Part shown: positions 54,970 through 63,738 of the stretch, in pieces | Layout: every line of letters begins with the position of its first letter | How positions within the stretch are numbered: position 1 is the stretch's first letter | Made by a program: the position numbers and the translations under genes | Source of the DNA: Halichondria panicea | Lineage: Eukaryota; Porifera; Demospongiae; Suberitida; Halichondriidae | NCBI RefSeq assembly: GCF_963675165.1 | Contig: NC_087386.1 | Span: forward strand, 6,392,066 to 6,456,065 | Direction: 5' to 3' | DNA length: 64,000 bases | Notes under the pieces: model-generated | Databases searched by the model: none | Told to the model about the DNA's origin: nothing | What the model saw: the letters and a program-made list of their open reading frames with translations, nothing else

Positions 54970-56998
54970 ATGACTACTGATACAGCGGAATACAAAGCCA
55001 TCTGTAGCTGCAGAGTGGATCTGACAGAGAGGCTCTCTAATTGCTTCAAAGATGTAGCTGAATACTTAAGTCAGAGTGGAGCACTGACTGACAAACAATG
55101 CCAGACAATCATCAGTGCTGAGATGATCCTAAATTATGTTCTTGTGGACATCAAAGACCCAGACACAACATTGGATGCATTTGCTTACTTTGTGACAGCA
55201 ATGAAACAAAGTGGAAACACATTCTTCAAAGCATTTGTCAAGAAAAAAATTGAAGCTAAACGAAAGGAATTCTATAGGGAACTGCTCCAAGTTCCACTAA
55301 GTAACGGAAAATGGTGATAATTATATGATCATGATTGAATTTTCCCATGCTCACAGGTTTCGTGGCATCTCAGGAATACGACGTCTTCATCAGCTACAGC
55401 CGTGAGGCTGACACTATGCGCACAGTCGACGCACTCTTCTGTGCTCTCGACTGACACAAAAAGGCCTCAGCGTGTTTGTAGACAGAGATGACATTCGTCC
55501 TGGGAACAGATGGCGATCTGAAATTGCCTCCGCCATCAAAACCTGCAAAACCTTTGTTTGTGTGCTCACTAAGTGCTATATTACATGAGGTCTGTGTACT
55601 GCAATGGAGAGATGTACGAAGCAGTGGCTCTTAAGAAGCGTTTGTTCCCAGTGGTGTGTGAGGATGGTTGGGGAGATGTGCCTGGAGGTGCTCCTATGAC
55701 AGAGGTAGTGAGAAACTTTCAGTATGTCTCTCTAGTGGCAGAGGACAGGGAGACACAACTGACAAGACTGGTGCAATGGATCAAAGGTCAGTCATTGCAT
55801 TGCAATCACTCTCATAGTGTTACTGAACTTATTTTGAAGTACTTTGATGATATCATTATTCATTTTGCAGAAACTGTGGCACCTTTATCACCTGTTGCAG
55901 TAGCTCCAGGCTTGTCTAATCTTCCCACCGATCGTGGTGGTAAGATGATGCTTGTGTTATTATCCCTCATGCAGACCCCTCGTACTCTGTAATGGAAGAT
56001 GTGTGTAAGAAGACTGGAGTGAGTGATCAACAACTCGATCAAGAAATCTCTGAGAGTGACATCATTCTATTGGTGGAGAAATGTCCTCACCTACTGAGCA
56101 TGCACAAGGTACGTAGTACATCTAAATCATATACGTCCTGACATTTTGGCGAGAAGAGAAATGGTGTATATGTATGTGTATGGGGGATTGATGACATGTA
56201 TCTAGAGGGTTCGGGGTATGCCCCCAGGAACTCATTACTACTGCTATTAAGAATATTGTTCACCAGAACCACTCAATTGTATTCCCATCGAGTTTCTTCT
56301 AGAAGGTATTTCTGAGGGGGCAACTCCCACCAAATGTAACCCTGTTGATTGTTGCTTTTGTGCAGGCTTTGACAATTTACGATCTACAATATGTTTACGA
56401 GAAACTTAAAAGTGTAAGCCCTCACTGGTTCGATCTGGGATTGGCTCTAGGTCTAACTCATCCTGTTCTCACCAACATTATATAGCGAGCATCGTGGAAA
56501 TAATGTGTTGTGCTTGCGTGAAATGTTGGCTCAGCTCCTGAGTACACAACGTGTAACATGGAGTCTCCTGTCAGATGGTCTCAAAAAGCCTACAGTGGAG
56601 CTCATCAATTTGGCTGATAGCATCACAGGTAACTATTTTTCAGTGTTTATGCATTTGACCCTGTGTGTTTCAGTGGTAATATGTACATCAAACGTCATTT
56701 AAATTTTTTTTCTTTGCATTCAGCCACAACTCCTAACCTGCTCAATCAACTCGACCTCACCCCAGCCAACCTTGGTGATGTAACTGATGTCACACGTCGT
56801 TATGGTAATCAAGCTGGAGTGGCTCATGCATTGAGAGTGTGGCAAAGAGTGAATCCTTCCAGAGCTACCTTCAGGGCCTTGGTGGGAATTGCCATAGGAC
56901 TGAGAAGAGGAGACACCGCTACAGACATTTGTAGATTCATTGTAAAGGAACTGAACAAAGATATTTTTTATTCTGTGTCTTCAACACATTGTTGACAT
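54970..56998 (+). pseudogene. CARD-like / TIR / Death-type paralogue with frameshifts
   Basis: Exon 1 (54970-55300) is open and CARD-like (MTTDTAEYKAICSCRVDL). The TIR exon (55357-about 55784) has two frame breaks against the intact gene: after TVDALFC (5 extra bases and a TGA near 55450) and at LTKCYIT (about 55570-55590, TGA). The rest, YCNGEMYEAVALKKRLFPV to LTRLVQWIKG, is intact. Later exons: 55870-55940, about 55974-56107 (VMEDVCKKTGVSDQQLDQEI), about 56368-56630 with a third break near 56484 (TAG) inside a Death-type domain (LCLREMLAQLLSTQRVTW), and 56725-56995 (second Death-type, FRALVGIAIGLRRG). Three lesions favour a pseudogene; assembly errors are possible. Confidence 0.72.
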
Positions 56999-58095: not shown

Positions 58096-58466
58096 TGTTG
58101 ACATTAATGTTGTGGTGGTCTGTGTAAAGTTGAGCATGCGCAGTATGAGCACCTGGAAAACAGGGGTGGGGCATGTAGGGGTTTTTCCCAATTGAGCTCA
58201 CATTTGCTTTTAAAAAAATAGGCGTGCTCCCTCCCCCGGCCCCGGCCCCATCTATGTTGAGCAAGAATCAAAACAAGAATTTTCATTGTCTATTATTATC
58301 AGTTTAGCATTATTGTGTGAGATCACAACAGCTATAAAAAGGTACATGCATGCTGCACTGAGTCAACAGTATTTACACATTGCAATAAGATTATATCCCC
58401 GGCCCCCCTCACAGATAGTAAAGAAACCATCTGTCTGTAGCTGCAAAGTGTAGCCAATAGATAATA

Positions 58467-61400
58467 ATGGGGATCACTGTGGAGTTGTGGAGAGCTCGTA
58501 TTGGGCTGTTCGGTGGTGGGAGGGGATCCCGACCACACTGTAAAGCTCCCTCGACAAAACACCAGCCTCTACACTTCAGTGATACAGTGGATACAACTGC
58601 GAAGCTTGTTCAAGGAGGCTTGATTTTATTGTTAATTCTCAAGTTTCTGAGCTCTCAAGACAAATCACATTTGCTAAAACGCACAAGGAATGCTGGTCTC
58701 CTGGTGATTGCCATTGTTGGATTGGTCCACTCTCTTGCCCATCTCTTGCTGCTAGCTGGAGACATTGAGAGCAATCCTGGGCCTCGAATGGGTAAGTTTT
58801 AGTATAGTCTATATTGTGAAGGTTTGACTGCATGTAAAGGTAAATCATGATGGTAAAGGTCTCTACTAAGAAACTAAATTTCTTCGTTACAGATGAAGTT
58901 CTGACTCTGCGTGGCCATCTGAAGGACGCTTGCAGCAAGCTGTTCAAGGCTCGTACAGAATGGTTCAATATTGGGCTAACTCTCAGTGTTGATGACAATA
59001 CTCTTACTACTATCCGCCAGGAGCATTCTAGTAACCATGGTGACTGTCTCCGAGAAATGTTGGCTCATCGTATCCAGGCAACAGATTCACTAACTTGGAG
59101 AGATGTGTGCAAGAGTCTCAGACACGTCACAGTAGGACGCAGCGATGTGGCAGATGAAATAGAGGGATATGTTTCAGGTAGTTAAGTACAAGTAGCCGAA
59201 CCTCTCCAACTCAGAAGCTAAAAAAAGTTTTATATTGATGGCATTGATAATTTAAGCAAAGCTGAGCGCTAGCTGTTTGTTAGCCAGAAAAGAGCTGCAA
59301 AGCTGCATGCATGTTCCTTAATCTATGCATATACAATGTATACTGCCAGAAGCAGCCCGTCTTGTGAACTCTTTAAGCTCCTCTTCATTGTCAACAATTG
59401 CATTATACCTCTTCTATATAATTGTAACGCTCTATTACCTAATATGCATTTTGAGCGAAGGCGAGAGGCATTAGCACAGCGCACCTTGCATCACTCGTTC
59501 AGTAGAGCACTCAATAGCAAGTATACAGGAAAGACCTCTACTAACATTAATACAGCAGGATACGCATAATTATTGTTGAGTGTGTCATTCCATACTGTAG
59601 GGTACTCTGCTCAACCAGTGAGTGAAGTTCTTCAAGGACTAATGAACAAATATCAAATCACTACTTTTCAAGTCGACTGTGAAATCCAGCAAAAGGACAT
59701 ACCGTATTTGGCCCTCCACTTCGATAATGTTAACCTCTATGTTGATGTGATGGAATTAACCCCTGGGGAGCAAATGGATGTCAACCGTGCAGATACTAAT
59801 CAATTAGCCATGATCAAGTGCTTGAAACTCTGGAAAGGAAAAAATCCTGCACAAGCGACATTCAGGGCCCTTCTGGAGATGTTGGTAAAGCTAAAGAAGG
59901 AAGAGATTGCTAGTCAAGTCTTGAAGGTGAATCTATGTGCACTTAGTATCCATAAGCCAATGCTTCAGTGATGCTTTTGCCACGGAACCACTGATGTAGC
60001 CCAATCCAGGGGCGTAGCCAGGGTTTTGAGGAAAGGGGTGCTACCATGACAAGATTTTTAGCCGCGCAGCGCCGAAATTTGGTTGACCGGAAGCCACACC
60101 TCTTATTAATGACGTAACAATTAATAGTTGGGCGTAGCCCAATCTTCTATTTGCATAGAGAAGCCTATTTTGCTACGAAAAAGAACTAGTCTATAGATTT
60201 AGACCATTTTAAATACCAATTCGTTTTGCTTGCCTACTAGCTAGCTAACTGCAGCAAGATCTGGAAGAGAAGGGGGTGCTCAGCTAGACAATCTGGTACA
60301 CTTTGTGTACAATCTCAAATAGAAAGCGGGTGCTTGAGCACCATGAGCCCCCCTTTCTACGCCTCTGCAATCAGGTTGCAGTGTTCAAGCGTGTCTTATT
60401 AATGAATAAATATGCAACAGCACCAGCATGAGCCAGATACACTCCAAGTCAAGTTAGAGCTATAATGCATGGCATTCGAAGTTTCCTCTTGCAGTAGGTT
60501 TCCGCCCACTTGTGATTAATCATATTCATACCTAAATACCAGTGAACAAAACCAGTGCATGGTTCCCAACCGATCCACCTATAGCCACTGTTTGCACGTA
60601 CCGAGCGTTTTCATCAACTGTATATATATACATATTATACTCTTTAACCTGATTGTCTTCATTTAGGATCACATTATGTCTATTCACACCACCACCCCTT
60701 CTTTGAAGTTAAGGACACAGGAGGATATCATCACCTCACTTCCAACACAGTCTAGTATGCAAGAAGCATCTAACTCACCTAAAGGTCAGTTTAATTATTA
60801 TTGATGCAGTTATTTTAATATATCTATTCTCAGTTTCAAGAAGCTATACTCTCTCCTCCACCAAGTGGGAGCTGGACTCACTAGAAATGGACGAAAAGTT
60901 CTCAAAGTTGGTAATAAAACTTCGGCAATCTTTGGAAAGTCGAATTGTTTTGAAGAAGGTGACGGCTTGTTTAATGGATGTGAGCTGCTATAGACAAGTG
61001 TTCGAAGGCCCTAACCAGTGTTTGTTTCGGGAGAAACGAGAGGATCTACAAAAAGCGACCGATATCTACGATGTGTGGGATGTTATCCGTGGCTATTTTT
61101 CTTATTTTTCGTATGGATTGATTGACCATCTCACTGACCATCTTGGAAGCGAAGAAGACAAAGACAACTTCACAATTTATTTGAAAGAGTTTGAAGAGTA
61201 TGCTAAACGAAGGATTCAGTACCCAACAAAGTTTGGTTCTGGTTCCAGAGATGATAGTACAGAGATGGTTGTGAAGCTCGACTCTACTTATGACAAGTGT
61301 GAGCTTCTTTACTTGAAACAGTTTGAAGAAAATCTATCAAAAATACTTAAAGTCAATGCAAACATGTTATTACTTCGTGGAATTAATGAAGGCTGTATTC

Positions 61401-61528
61401 AACTTGTATTCGAGGTACCCTCTTTCATTCCTCCCAACATCTTCCCACTCACATCCGATCAAGAAACAGAACTAAAGAATCATGGAGTAATCCAACTGGA
61501 CTGCGGGGACTATCATTGCAAAGTACAG
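58467..61528 (+). CDS. 2A-motif / Death / Death / novel-domain protein (3' end open, probably runs into ankyrin exons)
   Basis: Exons 58467-58791, 58893-59177, 59601-59926, 60667-60784, 60834-61528. Exon 1 has two hydrophobic stretches (GGLILLLILKFL, LLVIAIVGLVHSLAHLLLLA) then GDIESNPGP at residues 98-106 (58758-58784), the complete 2A consensus D(V/I)ExNPGP. ATG 58467 is the first after an in-frame TAG 9 nt upstream. Exon 2 is a Death domain (WFNIGLTLSVDDNTLTTIR, CLREMLAHRI, LTWRDVCKSLR). Exon 3 is a second Death-type domain (FRALLEMLVKLKKEEI). Exon 5 encodes an unnamed domain of about 200 residues (YDVWDVIRGYFSYFSYGLID, EMVVKLDSTYDKCEL, LLLRGINEGCIQLVFEVPSF). Exon 5 ends in phase 0 at a GTAAGT donor without a stop, and the next exons on this strand are phase-0 ankyrin cassettes at 63490. 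If skipping works, a 105-residue hydrophobic peptide separates from a cytosolic Death protein. Confidence 0.85.
60010..60366. mobile_element. hAT-like MITE with CAGGGGCGTAGCCAGG ends
   Basis: The left end CAGGGGCGTAGCCAGGGTTT and right end CCTTTCTACGCCTCTG are inverted repeats of the CAGGGGCG type common in hAT-derived MITEs; CAATC follows on the right and precedes on the left. In intron 3 of the 2A-Death gene. Confidence 0.65.
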
Positions 61529-63023: not shown

Positions 63024-63489
63024 CCATGCAGTGTGAAGTCGAAAAATATGGCCGACTAGCTAGTAAACTATGGCATTTTTCTTCAGTTTGTAGATAGATA
63101 GGAGCAAGAACTCTTCGAGCCGCTCTCAGGAATATCATAAACTGCTGGTAGGTCACTGTTTAGTTCTTGTTAGAGTCTTTCTTTGTCTAATATTTGACGA
63201 CTAAAATCGGCAATGACCACACGATCTTTGTGGCAAATTTTTTGCCATCTAGTTAGCGTACTGATAGCTAGCAAGCGCTGTAATAGTTACTTATGAGTAG
63301 TGCAACAGTATAGACACATCAAATAATAGCAATATCTTCCTTTCTCACAAAAAACAAAAAACAAAAACTCATGAATAATTCATGAGCAAACACTGCATCG
63401 TAACCTTAAGCAGACTTTTAGCGCAAACTTTTGGACCATTTATATGTGGGTCTGTGATGAGTGATCACACTATATTAACTCTGTACAGG

Positions 63490-63738
63490 ATGGAACCACT
63501 GCATTGTATGTAGCTGCTCGGAATGGTCATGTGAGGGCAGTGGAATTGTTGATTGCAGCAAAAGTTCAAGTTAACATTCAACAAAAGGTGATCATTACTG
63601 CTAGTCAGCTCTTAGTAGTACTATTTGGATTTGTACAGGATGGTTGGACAGCATTGTACATTGCCAGTCAGGAGGGTCACTGTGGAGTTGTTAGAATGTT
63701 GTTGGAGGCCAAGGCTGATATCAACGTCAAGACTAATG
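63490..63738 (+). CDS. Two ankyrin cassette exons (array continuing past the window)
   Basis: Exons 63490-63588 ([20 protein letters not shown] onward) and 63640-63738 (DGWTALYIASQEGHCGVVRM onward), each 99 bp, phase 0, with CAG acceptors and GT donors. They are close relatives of exons 7889-7987 and 12052-12150 of kinase-ankyrin gene A, including the intron to the right with the same Mutator-like insertion. Here they are on the plus strand. The nearest upstream gene on this strand, the 2A-Death gene, ends its last visible exon in phase 0, so they may form its C-terminal ankyrin array. Alternatively they belong to a third kinase-ankyrin relic. Confidence 0.8.

Follow-up and report, generated by a model that had tools for sequence, protein, structure and literature searches.

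The closest known counterparts of the system considered here are the N-terminal 2A-like leaders of sea urchin NLR genes, which both mediate ribosome skipping and act as signal sequences (Roulston 2016, PMC4981915). As in the sponge genes described below, the 2A sequence of these SpNLR2A genes, which are of immune type and encode death-fold and NACHT domains, lies N-terminally in a hydrophobic context, and cytosolic as well as membrane or secreted forms are expected from one mRNA. 2A sequences are also found in APE-type non-LTR retrotransposons (Odon 2013, cited in PMC4981915 and PMC12846837). Among the viral StopGo sequences, classes 2 and 6 are defined by an S in the free position and an L-rich hexapeptide ending in (A/S/C)G before the D, and motif 6 was active when tested (PMC12846837). 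Demosponges have expanded NLR and Death gene families, resembling the present case in the large size of their death-fold families, and transmembrane segments are reported for some sponge NLRs (PMC12909245). The term '2A-like' is absent from the main text of that study, as are 'sponge' and 'Amphimedon' from the main text of PMC4981915 and 'sponge' and 'Porifera' from that of PMC12846837. A literature search, with most subscription papers outside its scope, returned no paper dealing by title with 2A sequences in sponge genes, and within the text searched NPGP and Amphimedon occur together only in PMC9925728, on antioxidant enzymes. The authors of PMC4981915 considered speculation on the origins of 2A sequences fruitless because these are so short; the longer leader shared by the sequences described here makes common descent with those of LINEs testable.

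We analyzed a 64,000-nucleotide stretch of the Halichondria panicea genome (hereafter the window), in which a gene on the forward (+) strand opens with such a leader. Exon 1 (58467..58791) starts with an ATG at 58467, with A at -3 and G at +4, and is preceded by an in-frame TAG at 58458, the stop that the preliminary description had seen just 5' of the ATG. It is a coding exon of 108 residues (MGITVELWRARIGLF...LLLLAGDIESNPGPRM|G) that ends in LAHLLLLAGDIESNPGPRM plus one base of a split codon, followed by a phase-1 GTAAGT donor; the leader itself terminates in LAHLLLLAGDIESNPGP, with Death exons downstream. Its N-terminal part contains a WRARIGLF head motif (58488..58511), which recurs in further leader families and in a number of LINE ORFs. 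This is followed by a first hydrophobic segment at residues 43-61 (58593..58649, from a Kyte-Doolittle window), a second at residues 78-96 (58698..58754, from hydropathy) with its end 9 residues short of the Gly-Pro bond, and the StopGo/2A core LLLLAG-DIESNPGP (58743..58784), where skipping is predicted before the Pro codon at 58782-58784. The octapeptide DIESNPGP at 58761-58784 satisfies the core (D/G/C/N)(V/I)ExNPGP and holds every residue of D(V/I)ExNPGP, with a G before the D. The canonical 2A motif in a Death-domain gene and the hydrophobic run before it, both claimed at first reading, were thus borne out, the latter as an L-rich context and the segment at residues 78-96. The LLLLAG upstream and the S at the free position match the L-rich classes 2 and 6 of PMC12846837 as judged by eye rather than by the matrices of that paper. 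The likeness to the viral motifs 2 and 6 extends to (A/S/C)G before the D at p12, S at p15 and the L-rich hexapeptide, but the viral sequences lie inside polyproteins, whereas the sponge core lies in a host N-terminal exon. Exon 1 holds the only exact 2A motif in the window.

Downstream of exon 1, and in phase with it, exon 2 (58893..59177, +) follows a TTACAG and encodes a first Death domain, and exon 3 (59601..59926, +) a second one. The 118-nt exon 4 (60667..60784, +) encodes a putative linker, predicted from splice signals and frame together with matches at paralogous loci. The 695-nt exon 5 (60834..61528, +) encodes 231 residues of no recognized fold, which are conserved in families A and B of paralogous leader genes at 43-61% identity, have no match in Pfam or the PDB and gave a poor predicted model (pLDDT 63). 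Exons 6 (63489..63587, +) and 7 (63639..63737, +) each encode an ankyrin repeat, and more ankyrin exons lie past the window's end. The gene's architecture as read from these exons is accordingly 2A-Death-Death-(no recognized fold)-ankyrin. Of the preliminary view of a Death-Death protein the two Death exons stood; its completeness did not, as the 118-nt, 695-nt and ankyrin exons follow. The visible gene shows no NACHT-LRR portion downstream of the leader, only the Death, unassigned and ankyrin parts. Another Death-Death gene piece lies upstream of this gene (56303-56992, +), with its first Death exon split over two frames, with a TAG near 56482.

Taken singly, both Death exons score below the Pfam Death (PF00531) gathering cut-off of 22.6 bits, exon 2 with 16.2 bits and exon 3 with 19.6 bits (E=0.001). 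Ten of 21 exon 2 relatives have a Pfam Death match at E up to 0.1. With a limit of E up to 1, a profile of these 21 members recovered 15 distinct PDB sequences, of which 13, all FADD and PIDD, had E <0.001 (best 1e-4) and two, from CRADD, were weaker (E 0.08-0.1). The AlphaFold2 model of exon 2 (pLDDT 95.7) has six helices, and Foldseek placed FADD first, followed by PIDD, TNFR1, RIPK1 and ankyrin death domains; the top matches reached probability 1.00, yet E was 0.013 at best, none being <=0.001. As modeled, therefore, exon 2 has the six helices of the death fold.

That exon 1 is spliced to a Death exon, as had been proposed, finds support in an NCBI gene model for a paralogue. This record, P0021 ('ankyrin-3-like isoform X2 [Halichondria panicea]'), begins with exon 1 of genomic copy L011, which is 86% identical to that of the window, and runs on from it as ...NPGPRMNEVLSLRGHL..., joining at the inferred phase-1 donor with RM and then N from the split codon A|AT of L011. 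Pfam recognizes one Death stretch in P0021, at 22.6 bits exactly at the 22.6 cut-off, along with ten ankyrin stretches, and resemblance to the second exon-2-like match of L011 points to another Death-like stretch. An independently made model of a paralogue thus supports the splice predicted for the window gene, and in both a 2A sequence heads an immune-type gene of Death-Death-ankyrin type. A search for long proteins with the exact window leader (665 candidates) gave P0021 as the single match at E up to 10 and thus no LINE. Another record, P0027, resembled a cDNA but was rejected as one: its frame continues across the intron, so that it provides no transcript evidence.

A protein search of the genome with exon 1, a member of leader family A, gave 33 matches. 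The 18 strongest copies, including that of the window, match over the full 108 residues (E up to 6e-52). Of these, 17 are open, and the remaining one, L007, has an in-frame TAG outside the motif. The octapeptide D[VI]ESNPGP is intact in all 18, as is a GT at the donor position, whereas the broken copies (L019, L020/L022, L021 and L030) retain the exact motif in one case out of four. P0010 is a family A leader in which NPGA replaces NPGP and which would not be expected to skip. Across the eight copies that share the same type of exon 2, pN is 0.071 in exon 1 versus 0.112 in the Death-encoding exon 2, with pS of 0.17 and 0.20, respectively. The flanks of exon 1 have mean pairwise identities of 0.26 before and 0.49 after it, against 0.90 for the exon (gaps counted). 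Since pS is similar in the two exons, we rejected the notion of exon 1 as a separately moving exon in family A; ordinary duplication with fast change of non-coding sequence explains the unlike flanks.

The leader beyond the core is shared much more widely. In families A, B and D and in a type from contigs C13 and C15, a head of the form M..WRxRxGL is followed by a hydrophobic segment and then by the core. Hydropathy plots of eight leaders place the end of a 19-residue hydrophobic segment 7-11 residues before the Gly-Pro bond in six; in P0088 it ends 3 residues before, and in P0020 no segment exceeds the threshold. When 8000 candidate proteins were scored in a leader profile search, 213 matched at E up to 10, 120 of them listed; from this and two other searches we assembled 121 proteins. 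The exact core is present in 110 of the 121, while seven are one or two residues off and four lack it; a WRxRIG-like head is found in 112, both shares being biased upward because the searches share words with the motif. In another sponge, Amphimedon queenslandica, the leader heads a CARD-like protein (P0089) and a Death protein (P0088, 22.7 bits versus 22.6).

The same core recurs in LINEs, where P0099, P0112, P0020 and P0081 have the order head, hydrophobic or L-rich part, 2A and endonuclease-like sequence. P0099 and P0112, both outside the profile query, match PF03372 at 31.7 and 40.9 bits versus a cut-off of 24.5; P0020 (with P0019 a member of the query) and P0081 are LINE-type by resemblance. 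In a matrix built from 45 other heads, six LINE-type heads (P0020, P0081, P0091, P0099, P0112 and P0111) score 16.6-31.3, the best of 3 x 20,000 shuffled controls being 11.1; P0111 is classed here on weaker grounds, with no endonuclease in the available part. After its similar head and core, P0111 continues into what by eye appears to be a coiled coil. In the LINE-like frames of the Halichondria genome, no WRxRIG head was seen in the first 190 residues of the frames inspected; the ORFs combining head and endonuclease come from the protein search. The window leader differs from those of LINEs in being spliced to a host death-fold gene: neither endonuclease nor reverse transcriptase follows its 2A, and Death exons stand there instead.

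Relative to the sea urchin genes the parallel drawn in the preliminary description is apt, except that the sponge leader is longer and carries a conserved head. SpNLR2A leaders have 26 residues (PMC4981915), in contrast to the 76-143 residues of the host leaders measured here, and the WRxRIGLF-like head and the hydrophobic segment near the new C-terminus are features of the sponge leaders that SpNLR2A does not share. With this greater length and conserved head, the part that would be released resembles a small membrane protein more than a mere signal peptide. The genes downstream also differ, being Death-ankyrin, Death-NACHT and CARD-like in the sponge, and activity has been measured in the sea urchin, whereas the sponge system is known from sequence.

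The conservation of exon 1 could serve a membrane anchor alone. The leader would then be only a signal anchor or signal peptide whose 2A-like end was inherited, perhaps from a retrotransposon, and does not skip, and the gene would make one membrane-tethered Death-ankyrin protein. The hydrophobic segments fit this account, as does the net positive charge before the first of them in seven of the eight leaders; LINE ORFs headed by the same order of leader elements and the existence of variants lacking the exact motif are likewise in keeping with it. Yet in all pairs of the 18 family A copies dN/dS is 0.14 for the octapeptide, albeit over few sites, below the 0.36 of exon 1 as a whole and the 0.51 of the adjoining hydrophobic stretch (residues 76-98), which supports selection on the motif itself. 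Moreover, p11 is G in all 110 exact-core proteins while the free position x can be L, T, S, R, I, Q or V, and this constant G, a StopGo preference, would be superfluous for an anchor, although the argument is weakened by searches that favor the motif. We regard a non-skipping anchor as unlikely. A somewhat different possibility is that the leader acts mainly as a translational brake: with frequent drop-off during skipping, the 2A would set the amount of Death-ankyrin protein, perhaps under stress through eEF2, an eEF2-dependent control having been postulated by the authors of PMC4981915, and the upstream product would have no task of its own. Against this, residues 1-20 of the leader, which contain the head, have a dN/dS of 0.24 (all pairs of the 18 copies), and the head recurs across families and in Amphimedon. 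Such a conserved and recurring head suggests a task for the upstream product, and we hold such a brake to be distinctly improbable.

Over the 131 Mb of the genome there are 116 exact codon matches to D(V/I)ExNPGP (53 forward, 63 reverse) and none to the reversed pattern, by which we rejected a chance occurrence of the motif. At least 68 of the 116 have a Death exon 0-1500 bp downstream on the same strand, a lower bound as 150 of 611 candidate Death exons were scored, while one has such an exon upstream and none on the opposite strand; by position, the chance of a downstream Death exon is 0.0009 per motif. When sites with the same surrounding sequence are merged, 72 distinct sites are left. With a Death-like profile built partly from these very loci, after single-sequence matches, a Death-like exon is seen at 47 of the 72, no more than 2 kb away or inside the available sequence; the other 25, LINEs among them, have none within 2 kb. 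Under a loose GT rule, 39 of the 72 show a GT donor 7 nt beyond the Pro codon. A NACHT domain is encoded within 3 kb downstream of 11 of the 116 motifs, the window's not among them, and of none upstream or on the opposite strand. These counts draw on 102 scored matches of 265 candidates, all over the family cut-off; the same search on control genomes had matches in 11 of 14, over the cut-off in three. Eleven motifs, one being the query's own site, are followed within 400 bp by a match to a CARD-like exon from contig C7 (66 matches, 150 of 173 candidates scored), again with none upstream or on the opposite strand; no Pfam family exceeds its cut-off in this exon, and 'CARD-like' denotes resemblance to P0089, which itself scores 16.6 bits against a Pfam CARD cut-off of 23.9. 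Among the exons of leader family H found by protein search and reaching the motif, 45 of 47 keep it and two lack the exact form, a count that drops seven of 54 matches (six of G-type on contig C2 and one ending short of the motif). One of these six G-type matches, at C2:7771283, is without the exact motif. The 2A sequence noted for the window's Death-Death protein is therefore real and yet not peculiar to one such protein: it is one of 116, placed before Death, NACHT and CARD-like exons.

Other sites illustrate the range of contexts. An array at about 0.50-1.63 Mb on contig C14 holds 41 of the 116 motifs, with the leader LLLQSGDVEANPGP; Death exons follow most of them, and seven have a NACHT domain within 3 kb. 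No Pfam family exceeds its curated cut-off in the long 2A-containing ORFs L073, L082, L083 and L086, the first three of which are alike by eye in a cysteine-rich stretch. At least five of the 116 sites (L034, L036, L038, L050/L089 and L090) are LINEs in which the motif is followed by endonuclease-like sequence, with a putative PHD-like stretch in between. That exon 1 is a piece of a retrotransposon, or an independent repeat, standing by chance before a Death gene and outside its mRNA, as 2A sequences in LINEs and these LINE-like sites might suggest, is very improbable, and an unjoined remnant was rejected, given the splice of the paralogous exon to a Death domain in P0021, the Death exon at all 18 distinct family A sites with the donor conserved in all 18 copies, and Death exons downstream of so many motifs.

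We therefore consider it probable that exon 1 is a working StopGo leader, so that one mRNA would be translated into a membrane peptide, a cytosolic Death-ankyrin protein with an N-terminal Pro and, as a minor product, an uncleaved form. Most ribosomes would release the nascent chain at NPG|P, giving a 105-residue first product whose WRARIGLF head is basic and conserved and whose hydrophobic segment ends 9 residues before the C-terminus. As this segment would still be in the exit tunnel at release, the first product would have its anchor at the C-terminus, and it may become a tail-anchored or hairpin membrane peptide, a topology predicted from the hydropathy window alone. The second product would be a cytosolic Death-Death-ankyrin protein with Pro as its first residue, roughly eight residues ahead of the first Death helix in the exon 2 model, and its dose would match that of the first. 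Ribosomes that do form the Gly-Pro bond would make a minor full-length form, tethered to the membrane by the leader. The company of Death, ankyrin and NACHT domains makes innate signaling the likely field of the Death-ankyrin protein.

On a broader scale, we tentatively propose, with odds that we put slightly below even, that a leader module comprising head, hydrophobic segment and StopGo core has moved between LINEs and genes of animal innate immunity. In demosponges it would have multiplied as an exchangeable N-terminal exon, by which Death, CARD-like or NACHT genes co-produce a tail-anchored membrane protein and a cytosolic signaling protein at a fixed ratio. Apart from this proposal, the sponge leader offers a native animal system in which skipping would set both the dose and the location of Death-domain signaling; if the module did move and multiply in this way, ribosome skipping would be a standing genome-wide device of animal immunity rather than a viral rarity.
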